From the NCBI RefSeq assembly GCF_030848565.1, contig NZ_JAVDDV010000012.1, positions 32,001 through 82,732 of the forward strand: 50,732 nt of DNA, given 5' to 3'. The DNA comes from Natronolimnohabitans sp. A-GB9 (lineage in GTDB: Archaea > Halobacteriota > Halobacteria > Halobacteriales > Natrialbaceae). Positions 2,691-46,544 of the stretch are shown here, piece by piece. Position 1 is the first letter of the stretch. Each line of letters begins with the position of its first letter. Below the pieces are notes generated by a model that was given only the letters and a program-made list of their open reading frames with translations, did not search any database and had not been told where the DNA came from. The position numbers were made by a program, and so were the translations under genes.

Positions 2691-3980
2691 ATGGAGTCAC
2701 GAACGTTCTGGGTGCTCGACGACGACGATCGAACCGTCGTCGCGGATCTCGCGGTCGGACTCGGGCGGACGGCCGCGCGGGTGCTCGCGTATCTCCTCTT
2801 GCGAGCCCAGCGGGAACCCGAGTGCGAGCCCGCGACGATGGTCCAACTGCAGGTCGGGACGGGGTTGAGTCGATCGCCGGTCAGCAACGCGGTCACGCAA
2901 CTCGAGGACGTCGGGTTGATCGAGCACACGACGGTCAGTACCGACGCCCAGGGGCGCCCACCGTCGGCGTGGCAGCCGACCGTCGATCTCGTCTCGAGTC
3001 GCCGTCGCGTCTACGAGGCCCACGCGAGGACGCTTCTCGAGCGGGCGGCTGGGATCTTTTCGGACGAATCGTCGACGGCGGATGGGCCACCGGAGGCGGC
3101 GGGGGACGACGAACTGACGGTCGCGTTGAACTGGCACCCGAACGGGCTCCACGTCCCGCTGTATACGGCGACGGCGTCGACGTCGACGTCGACGTGGTAC
3201 GACGAGTACGGTGTCGACGTCGGCCTCGAGCACTGTGAGGGATCGCTACGTGCGCTCAACCGGGTGCGTTCGGGCGAGGCGGACGTCGCGATCGCCGGTG
3301 CCGCGACGGTCCTTCGAGCCAGAGCGTCGGGGGCGCCGATCGTCCCGATCGCGGTACTCTATCAGCGTGCGATGACGGTGCTGTATACCGTCCGAGACGT
3401 GTTCGGCGAGCAACTCCGCAGCGTCGAGCAGCTCCGCGATCGACGGATCGGAATGCCGCCTCACTCCGAGACCGGCGTCCTCGGCCGTCTGTTCATCTCA
3501 CAGACGGCACTCGAGGACGCCATCGAGATCGTAGAGACGGCCGGAGAAGAACGCGAGGCACTCCTGTCGGGACGTGCCGACGTCGTGACCGGATCGGTCA
3601 CCGACCCACAACATCTAGAACGGCGCGGGAAGACGGTCGATACGCTCCTCGTTACCGACCACTTCCCGATATACGGGCCGACGATCGTCGTCCACGAGGG
3701 CGCGCTTCGAGAGCGACGCGACGACTTCGCGGCGTTTCTCGCCGGTACGGCCGGCGGATGGGCGGACGCGAGTCGCGAACCCGGGCCGGCGGCGGCCCGG
3801 ATCGCCGAACTGGGCGACGACGGACCGGACCGCGTTCGGGCGACATTCGAGCGGGCCGCGACCGAGTTCGGTGGCAGCGACGACACGCGCGAACACGGGT
3901 GGGGATGGCAGTGCGAGCGGACGTGGAATAGGCTTCGGACGGCACTCGAGCAGGGACAGCTACTCACGGAGGAGCCATGA
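2691..3980 (+). CDS. Winged-helix DNA-binding domain fused to NMT1/THI5-type solute-binding domain
   Basis: 429 residues. Residues ~10-100 form a MarR/TrmB-like winged helix with a recognition-helix segment GLSRSPVSNAVTQLEDVGLI (58-77). A linker (~105-139) leads to a periplasmic-binding-protein fold of the NMT1/THI5 type starting ELTVALNWHPNG (140-151) and containing LRDRRIGMPPHSETG and the PIYGPTIVVH segment. There is no signal peptide or lipobox, so it should be cytoplasmic. The simplest reading is a one-component regulator that senses the same ligand class as the adjacent importer; this is inference. Three in-frame GTCGAC hexamers (3176-3193) encode a Thr/Ser run where relatives usually have a ligand-pocket loop. 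Its stop overlaps the ATPase start by four bases (ATGA), so it is first in a three-gene operon. Confidence 0.88.
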   Translation: MESRTFWVLDDDDRTVVADLAVGLGRTAARVLAYLLLRAQREPECEPATMVQLQVGTGLSRSPVSNAVTQLEDVGLIEHTTVSTDAQGRPPSAWQPTVDLVSSRRRVYEAHARTLLERAAGIFSDESSTADGPPEAAGDDELTVALNWHPNGLHVPLYTATASTSTSTWYDEYGVDVGLEHCEGSLRALNRVRSGEADVAIAGAATVLRARASGAPIVPIAVLYQRAMTVLYTVRDVFGEQLRSVEQLRDRRIGMPPHSETGVLGRLFISQTALEDAIEIVETAGEEREALLSGRADVVTGSVTDPQHLERRGKTVDTLLVTDHFPIYGPTIVVHEGALRERRDDFAAFLAGTAGGWADASREPGPAAARIAELGDDGPDRVRATFERAATEFGGSDDTREHGWGWQCERTWNRLRTALEQGQLLTEEP

Positions 3981-43595: not shown

Positions 43596-43718
43596 GGGCG
43601 TGGTAACGCCCTGTTGTCACGATAGCAGGACGCTTTGTTCGCGGCCATTTCAAAGACGCTGATCCACATCCCTCGAAGACGCCGATCCAGTCCCCCAAAG
43701 ATACTGATCTACGAGCAT
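43596..43718. repeat. Small hairpin and threefold degenerate 23-bp repeat
   Basis: GGGCGT (43596-43601) pairs with ACGCCC (43606-43611) in a 4-nt-loop hairpin. Then CAAAGACGCTGATCCA (43651), CGAAGACGCCGATCCA (43674) and CAAAGATACTGATCTA (43696) repeat at 22-23 bp spacing. The surrounding 440 bp have no gene. Confidence 0.55.
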
Positions 43719-44845: not shown

Positions 44846-46012
44846 ATGTCGAATACGATCATCGCGGGAACAGGCATGACTCCGTTCGGACCACACCAGG
44901 ATCGGACGGGGCGGGACATGTTTGCAGCGGCGGGACGCGCCGCCCTCGACGATGCCGGACTCGAGCCCGAGGACGTAGACGAGGTGTTTTACGGGAACTT
45001 CGTCGGGACGATCACCGAAAATCAGGGCCACCAGGGTCCCATCGCCGCGGAGGCACTCGGAACGACGGCTCCGAGCAGGCGCGTCGAAAGCGCGTGTGCC
45101 TCGAGTGGGGCGGCGATCCGCGACGCCGTTCGGGCGGTCCGAAGCGGCGACTCCGACGTCGTCGTCGCCGGTGGGATGGAACGAATGAGCAACGTTGGAA
45201 CCGCCGGCGCGACCGACGCACTCGCCCGTGCAGCCGACGATCTCCACGAGATCAGGGCCGGTATCACGTTCCCCGCGGCGTACGCCTTGATGGCACAGGC
45301 GTATTTCGATCGCTTCGGTGGCAGCCACGAGGACCTCGCTCACATCGCCGTCAAGAACCACGAGAACGCACTCGTCAACGACCACGCACACTTCCAGCAG
45401 GCGATTTCTGTCGACGACGTCATCGAAGCGCCCGAAGTGGCGGCGCCGCTTGGGCTGTACGACGCCTGCCCGATCAGCGACGGTGGGGCTGCGCTCGTGC
45501 TCACGTCCGCGGAGTACGCCGCCGAACACGACCTCGAGACGACGGTCGCGATCACGGGATCGGGACACGGCGGCGATACGATGGCCTTACAGGATCGACG
45601 GGAGCTCGCGAAGACGCCGGCGACCCGCGACGCCGCCGAGGAGGCCTACGACGACGCCGACGTCGGCCCATCCGACGTCGATCTCGTGGAGGTCCACGAC
45701 TGCTTTACGATCGCGGAAGTCCTCGCACTCGAGGGACTCGGACTCTACAGCTATGGAGAGGGGATCGGTGCGGCCCGCCGCGGCGAAACCTGTCGGGACG
45801 GCAGGCTTCCGGTGAACCTCTCGGGCGGCCTCAAAGCGAAGGGCCATCCTGTCGGTGCGACCGGCGCAGCCCAGCTCATCGCGGTGGCCTCGCTGCTCGA
45901 GGGATCGCATCCGCGCGCTGACGCCGTCGAAGACGCAACGCTTGGCGTCGCCCACAATGCTGGCGGCACGGTCGCCAGTGCGACGGTTCACGTTTTGGAG
46001 GTGGTTGCATGA
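44846..46012 (+). CDS. SCP2-type thiolase (acetyl-CoA acetyltransferase family)
   Basis: 388 residues. Nucleophile Cys84 lies in VESACASSGAAI. VHDCFTIAEVLALEGLGL is the HDCF motif of SCPx/archaeal thiolases, and GGLKAKGHPVGATGAAQL holds the second catalytic His. It lacks the Cys of the CxG motif found in bacterial degradative thiolases, as archaeal ones do. Archaeal thiolases of this group work with a DUF35 OB-fold partner, encoded just downstream. The stop TGA (46010-46012) overlaps an ATG at 46009, now the first unit of a 51-bp tandem repeat. Confidence 0.94.
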   Translation: MSNTIIAGTGMTPFGPHQDRTGRDMFAAAGRAALDDAGLEPEDVDEVFYGNFVGTITENQGHQGPIAAEALGTTAPSRRVESACASSGAAIRDAVRAVRSGDSDVVVAGGMERMSNVGTAGATDALARAADDLHEIRAGITFPAAYALMAQAYFDRFGGSHEDLAHIAVKNHENALVNDHAHFQQAISVDDVIEAPEVAAPLGLYDACPISDGGAALVLTSAEYAAEHDLETTVAITGSGHGGDTMALQDRRELAKTPATRDAAEEAYDDADVGPSDVDLVEVHDCFTIAEVLALEGLGLYSYGEGIGAARRGETCRDGRLPVNLSGGLKAKGHPVGATGAAQLIAVASLLEGSHPRADAVEDATLGVAHNAGGTVASATVHVLEVVA

Positions 46013-46166
46013 GCACTGCGAATGCAACGATACCAGCGCTTTGCTCTGGGAGTGGTTGCATGAGCACTGCGAATGCAACGATACCAGCGCTTTGCTCTGG
46101 GAGTGGTTGCATGAGCGCTGCGAATGCAACGATACCAGCGTCCACGCTGGAGGTGGTTGCATGAGC
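45996..46166 (+). repeat. 51-bp tandem repeat separating thiolase and DUF35 genes
   Basis: GTGGTTGCATGAGC starts at 46001, 46052, 46103 and 46153, giving periods of 51, 51 and 50 bp. Units 1 and 2 are identical; unit 3 differs at one base in its first 38 and ends with a new copy of the thiolase tail. The 19-mer TGGAGGTGGTTGCATGAGC is present at both edges (45996-46014 and 46148-46166). Each unit contains an inverted repeat GTTGCAT and ATGCAAC around an 11-nt loop, with a start codon in the left arm. There are no spacers, so it is not CRISPR. Confidence 0.92.
46009..46164 (+). CDS. Possible repeat-encoded 51-residue peptide
   Basis: The tandem repeat is open in the ATG frame: two copies of MSTANATIPALCSGSGC and a third, altered one ending STLEVVA. 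Its ATG overlaps the thiolase TGA and its TGA overlaps the DUF35 ATG, so translation could pass along the chain by ATGA coupling. Composition (rare ATA codons, Cys, not acidic) is unlike host proteins, so it may be only a translational bridge or untranslated. Confidence 0.3.
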   Translation: MSTANATIPALCSGSGCMSTANATIPALCSGSGCMSAANATIPASTLEVVA

Positions 46167-46544
46167 GACGTCCGCGACGGCGCGTTCGACGAGTTCCTCG
46201 ACGCCCTCGAGGAAGGGGACGGCTACTACCTCGAGTGTTCGAACGGACACGGACTCCTCCCGCCGCGACGGGTCTGTCCCCACTGTGGCGATCGCGAACT
46301 GACACGGCGACCGCTCCCGGCGACCGGCGAGATCGTCACGCACACGTCGGTCGCCGTGCCGACGCCACAGTTCGACGACGACGCGCCATACGTCACGGCG
46401 ATCGCGTCGTTCGGTCCCGTCAGGATAACAGGTATCGTCGCCGATGCCGACCGAACCGACGTCGAGATCGGGCAACCAGTGGCCGTCGACGTCGAAGCAA
46501 ACGCGACGACGGGTGAACGAACGATCACGTTCCGACTCCAGTAG
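46161..46544 (+). CDS. DUF35 OB-fold protein, thiolase partner
   Basis: 127 residues from ATG 46161. An N-terminal helix and rubredoxin-like zinc ribbon (LECSNGHGLLPPRRVCPHCGDREL; one CxxC and a C-x3-H pair) are followed by an OB fold (GEIVTHTSVAVPTPQFDD ... ITGIVADADRTDVEIGQPVAVDVE). Such proteins clamp thiolases and bind acyl-CoA, channelling intermediates. Originally it must have overlapped the thiolase stop by ATGA; 152 bp of repeat now lie between, and the ATGA is regenerated. Confidence 0.92.
   Translation: MSDVRDGAFDEFLDALEEGDGYYLECSNGHGLLPPRRVCPHCGDRELTRRPLPATGEIVTHTSVAVPTPQFDDDAPYVTAIASFGPVRITGIVADADRTDVEIGQPVAVDVEANATTGERTITFRLQ

Follow-up and report, generated by a model that had tools for sequence, protein, structure and literature searches.

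The MIRUs of mycobacteria, whose original description is reportedly that of Supply et al. in 1997, vary in tandem copy number and, to our knowledge, are without dyad symmetry. They insert at start codons and contain an internal ORF that is coupled at -4 nt to the target gene, an arrangement believed to spare the host gene from damage (review PMC12548453). Termination-reinitiation at ATGA junctions, the same type of junction in the same class of organisms as studied here, was described for Haloferax volcanii, and the accessible parts of these papers mention neither an inserted element nor a micro-ORF (PMC6728339, PMC10666635).

The window analysed here is the whole stretch of 50,732 nucleotides from Natronolimnohabitans sp. 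A-GB9. In this window, 152 bp separates exact copies of TGGAGGTGGTTGCATGAGC at 45996 and 46148, between a thiolase gene and the gene of its DUF35 partner. The features of this junction are the following:

44846..46012, + strand: thiolase, the upstream cistron (Pfam Thiolase_N/C)
45997..46003, + strand: GGAGGTG Shine-Dalgarno (SD) motif in the thiolase end, for the micro-ORF start (from the sequence)
46009..46164, + strand: 51-codon bridging micro-ORF, with ATGA overlaps to thiolase at its start and to DUF35 at its end
46009..46059, + strand: unit 1, 51 bp (covariance-model match 45995-46063, 71.9 bits)
46060..46110, + strand: unit 2, 51 bp, identical to unit 1
46111..46160, + strand: unit 3, 50 bp (covariance-model match 46097-46164, 73.7 bits)
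46106..46130, + strand: helix H1 of unit 3, formed by GTTGCAT over the start codon and ATGCAAC (46124-46130)
46135..46150, + strand: helix H2 of unit 3, CCAGCGT-CC-ACGCTGG, the 3' arm of which continues into the next SD
46149..46155, + strand: GGAGGTG SD of the last unit, for DUF35 (from the sequence and the predicted fold)
46161..46544, + strand: DUF35 / OB-fold partner, the downstream cistron (Pfam PF01796, the former DUF35)

The TGA of the thiolase gene is part of the ATGA at 46009-46012, and the native SD lies within the final codons GAG GTG GTT GCA TGA. Judging from filled and empty sites of relatives, this native SD (45997..46003) would be the insertion site of the cassette. The micro-ORF product consists of two copies of MSTANATIPALCSGSGC followed by MSAANATIPASTLEVVA, and its TGA stop (46162-46164) lies within the ATGA of DUF35. 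Because units 1 and 2 are 51 nt long, with GGGAG as their internal SD, the ATGs inside the array share one frame, which gives a single 51-codon ORF. The sequence of unit 3 departs from that of units 1 and 2 in the hairpin. The initial annotation had divided these 152 bp into 51+51+50, with ATGA overlaps at both ends and a 51-residue frame, and this was correct to the base. The TRF score of the array (276) was far above that of any other tandem array in the window; an imperfect short tandem repeat of 22-23 bp was also seen at 43651-43709, close to the end of a beta-oxidation gene cluster. The array is single in its own genome, where two other thiolase/DUF35 pairs (L005, L006) are plain overlaps.

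On the sequence comparisons that follow, we consider it likely that the array arose by tandem expansion from one copy of a small element which is dispersed in Halobacteria and occupies SD-ATGA junctions in translationally coupled gene pairs. Thiolase and DUF35 had been supposed to overlap directly by ATGA in former times, and this is indeed the arrangement seen in the sister species (G001) as well as dozens of relatives. The N-terminus of DUF35 in this sister species (MSEHSDAS..., G001:C86:93636-93711, L003) gave a weak model match (29.9 bits, E = 1.7e-5), which may be the remnant of a lost unit or due to chance. Related units were found at 25 thiolase/DUF35 loci (1-5 units of 50-62 bp each), and the chain of ORFs closed on the DUF35 start at all 25, 24 times via [AG]TGA and once (L086) via TGATG. 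At most loci every unit formed a separate ATGA-to-ATGA ORF of 17-21 codons, and some units, in the window and at L047 and L065, were multiples of three that read on into the next unit. The recent expansion proposed in the initial annotation is borne out by the range of 1-5 copies and by one genome (G122) in which two copies of the gene pair, ~98% identical (by mismatches), carry 2 and 1 units. At three loci, G050 has 2 units and its sister G051 has 1. Copy number thus changes fast.

A covariance model (R1) was built from the thiolase/DUF35 junctions; these training junctions had SD and ATGA ends, and the matches are thus biased to such ends, but not to their frame. Within the class Halobacteria, R1 matched 86 of 391 genomes at E<=1e-9, representing 44 of 86 genera, and within the family 68 of 125 genomes at E<=0.01, many of the latter matches being weak. 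The copies per genome were few (1-7). The strong matches were ORF cassettes located at ATGA junctions between other gene pairs. Hosts identified by Pfam were LeuC/LeuD, EtfB/EtfA, GcvPA/GcvPB, ribosomal L18e/L13 and ABC ATPase/permease, and further ones include HAD hydrolase/class II aldolase and hexapeptide transferase/DegT. Other host junctions were TrkA and its neighbour, ABC ATPase/PhnM-like and HPr, some of the host names (such as PhnM and HPr) being read from the sequence and not Pfam results. The idea of a local expansion that splits one gene pair was therefore too narrow, as the array is one copy of a cassette dispersed over unrelated operons. Elements from different operons were closer within a genus than between genera (0 of 2000 permutations), with the reservation that related sequences make P values exaggerate independence.

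R1 matches of 34-46 bits were rejected as true cassettes, since 0 of 25 had SD and ATGA at both ends; they are related dispersed repeats. With regard to a viral origin, the SD-to-SD pattern had no exact match in 2.9 million viral contigs, a search that divergent copies would escape. The leuC/leuD cassettes (L198, L200, L204, L205, L206, L213) are orthologous and occur in genus g35 and its relative g61, where they look stably retained, unlike cassettes elsewhere, which are patchy. The L18e/L13 cassettes (L182, L197, L207) come from genomes of a family other than that of the window, and their presence means that an essential operon tolerates the insertion. At L196 and L212, the 60-bp units are in frame with the downstream gene, and the cassette may form an N-terminal extension of the downstream protein.

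The order of a unit from SD to SD was as follows: the native SD is followed by a start codon and a micro-ORF of 17-22 codons, then by a pair of covarying hairpins, and the unit closes with an SD of its own. Two helices recur, of which H1 consists of the start-codon stretch and an inner arm, and H2 is the hairpin immediately before the next SD. Folding of the 181-nt region gave z = -5.8, and an equally good fold was obtained in 0 of 200 shuffles. In the 28 units of the training set, 34 double-change cells were counted compared to 9.8 after shuffling (slid controls <= 6). The corresponding numbers were 61 and 16.3 for 39 elements of other operons, none of them in the training set, with 11 of 18 pairs altered on both sides; the alignment of these 39 was fitted to the model and hence leans towards it. 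A main helix in which the inner arm would pair with the downstream start was rejected, as it showed weaker covariation and was broken in single-copy elements. The Rfam search gave no match above the gathering score.

These helices raise the question whether the cassette is an RNA element selected by the host to set the ratio of two proteins. H1 would then mask the start of the micro-ORF, H2 and the inner arm would mask the next SD and AUG, and the number of units would tune the output. In agreement with this, the H1 arm prefers its own upstream start region, matching it in 34 elements and the downstream one in 6 where the two regions differ (they are identical in the window), and A/G changes in the start codon are mirrored in the arm. 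Moreover, the predicted fold of the window pairs the SD and AUG of DUF35 with 46124-46136 and buries them in the last hairpin, and many of the hosts are heteromeric complexes. A predicted fold in which the downstream SD and start stay masked until ribosomes have translated the upstream ORF resembles the SD-sequestering structures of UTNI, in which, however, the native upstream gene and not an inserted cassette provides the pairing partner (PMC6728339). However, the cassette is present in a minority of genomes only and is missing from most orthologous junctions, and complexes are enriched among overlapping pairs anyway (PMC10666635). In addition, the hairpin architecture is also found in repeats outside ATGA sites, and the structure thus need not serve translation. 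We regard such a host-selected element as conceivable but doubtful.

The repeats outside ATGA sites (L139-L162, L216, L218, L222 and L225) form a dispersed Halobacteria family with the same two-hairpin plan (e.g. GAGGTCTTCGCGAACGAAGTGAGCGAAGGCTTGTCAGAGCTTGCTCTGACAGTGG), without SD or ATGA ends and without frame preference. The model used to find them (R2) matched 113 times in G417, 33 times in G159, 28 times in G107, 21 times in G003 and 6 times in the window's own genome. The window units are also detected by R2 (E about 2e-8), and a weak match was seen at window positions 3697-3765 (15.9 bits, E = 0.013). The ATGA cassettes and the outside repeats share the two-hairpin architecture, and the repeat family is possibly the parent of the cassette. 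This suggests that the hairpins are a trait of the family, and that SD, start codon and frame are a specialisation of this branch. A more far-reaching scenario, which we consider unlikely, is that a class-wide family of two-hairpin repeats spawned a specialised form that entered the coupled operons of heteromeric complexes. There it would act as a translational switch tunable by copy number, in which every unit masks the SD and start that follow it until a ribosome has passed.

The reading as a dispersed cassette was examined at four pairs of filled and empty sites (phn, leuCD, etfBA and thiolase), all of which revealed a precise presence or absence. For phn, a 59-bp unit is found in Natrinema hispanicum (G059) and in G058 and none in Haloterrigena sp. 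H1 (G073); filled and empty DNA are 94-96% identical with a clean 59-bp difference. The filled leuCD site of G031 reads GGAGGTG/GTCGCATGA...CTGGAGGTG/ACGGTATGA, with an insert that starts with GTCGC, whereas the empty site of G033 reads GGAGGTG/ACGGTATGA. The two SDs differ in etfBA, GGGGGTG being the native one and GGAGGTG the one at the 3' end of the unit, and the unit therefore brings its own SD. The thiolase pair G036 and G038 showed a contrast between filled and empty site as in etfBA. As a deletion between the SD copies could give an identical empty site, gain versus loss is unproven at any single site; the scattered distribution favours gain plus loss, and we infer that units are mobile, as opposed to loss of an old unit at a given site. 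A purely local tandem duplication without wider meaning, in which the two SD-ATGA motifs of this one gene pair slipped against each other, could account for the identity of units 1 and 2 and for the ease with which copy number shifts. However, empty junctions lack the inter-SD core, and many unrelated operons and families contain it, making this explanation very unlikely. Slippage is still the likely cause of the expansion from 1 to 3 copies.

Next to its location, the cassette is constrained in frame. The spans of R1 units were 0, 1 and 2 modulo 3 in 8, 0 and 73 cases, respectively (n=81), whereas the control repeats outside ATGA sites found with R2 showed no preference (27, 21 and 22). Because the unit length is 3n+2, the micro-ORF stops exactly in the downstream ATGA. 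The frame that rebuilds a second coupling, noticed initially in the window, is conserved across many lineages. H2 is 17 nt long when starting in phase 2 and 16 nt in phase 0 (56:0 vs 3:21), the three exceptions running on into the next unit or gene, and the 1-nt difference in phase is offset by the 16- or 17-nt hairpin. Depending on this length, the middle of the peptide occurs in two frames (ANATTPA-type or ERMRVRQ-type) while the frame of the end is kept, which indicates that continuity of translation is conserved and not the peptide. This points to selection for ribosome passage instead of peptide, and fits the observation in Haloferax volcanii that a stop-to-start spacing of ~20 nt nearly abolishes coupling (PMC10666635). 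The conserved frame and a recurrent LEVVA C-terminus could also be expected of a gene for a conserved functional micropeptide, but the two frames in its middle argue against this and the LEVVA tail results from reading the SD in codons, so that we consider such a gene highly improbable. Least credible is an assembly artefact of a short-read contig: the assembly is in 72 contigs, but G050 (Natribaculum breve) has arrays of two copies at three loci, of which two lie on its complete chromosome (NZ_CP095390.1), and the 3-contig genome G038 has an array of five.

For the dispersed cassette, we propose that a unit is placed after the native SD, and that the native start codon would then follow the unit's own SD. 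Ribosomes ending the upstream gene would reinitiate on the micro-ORF, which is probably translated, and open the hairpins on their way. Having terminated at the second ATGA, they would start once more on the partner gene. ATGA junctions of Haloferax volcanii couple by termination-reinitiation (PMC6728339, PMC10666635), which explains why an insertion must carry an overlapping ORF. As ribosomes would reinitiate twice across the unit, coupling would outlast an insertion that would otherwise abolish it. A unit may be neutral for the host or have a dosage effect. The host may use units to tune stoichiometry, but an element that must not harm downstream translation would account for the frame constraint equally well.

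Transposase-free, palindrome-bearing elements dispersed in haloarchaea, like the cassette, are the PATE, SMR and MITE of Haloquadratum (PMC3119063). PATEs are defined there by near-terminal palindromes related to IS605 ends and SMRs by inverted terminal repeats. Hairpins are present close to both ends of the unit described here. SMR-A differs from this unit in being ~110 bp long and in targeting other mobile elements, and no coding junctions or frame constraint are described in the accessible part of that source. REP/REPIN sequences, which RAYT transposases mobilise, are likewise short, genome-dispersed hairpin repeats, but they are bacterial, extragenic and without ORF bridging (PMC3116915, PMC2817692).

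Likened by function and description and not by MIRU sequences, the cassette appears to work like a MIRU. It is a short repeat dispersed over unrelated loci with a variable tandem copy number, its small internal ORF overlaps both neighbours (-4 nt at the target), and empty orthologous sites point to insertion at a coupled start/stop. It differs from the mycobacterial family in its host group, all elements here being from Halobacteria, the searched group, and in its two covarying hairpins instead of an absence of dyad symmetry. Further differences are that the unit is bounded by SD motifs, that its copies number 1-7 per genome and that related hairpin repeats exist outside ATGA sites. The simplest account of its anatomy, dispersal over operons, exact filled and empty sites, frame constraint, covarying hairpins and copy-number change would be a mobile, translation-transparent cassette capable of tandem expansion as well, and thus the archaeal counterpart, by analogy, of the MIRUs in mycobacteria.

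A literature search, conducted mostly outside subscription journals, found no description of a haloarchaeal element of this kind. Outside mycobacteria, we know of no other mobile repeat that is shaped by passing ribosomes through a gene overlap. If our reading is true, such a repeat has been found independently in a second domain of life. Since insertions into essential and heteromeric operons exist in nature together with their matching empty sites, the rules of termination-reinitiation could be tested in the wild, and likewise whether coupling really sets subunit ratios. It would also add many unannotated ORFs of 17-51 codons to haloarchaeal genomes.
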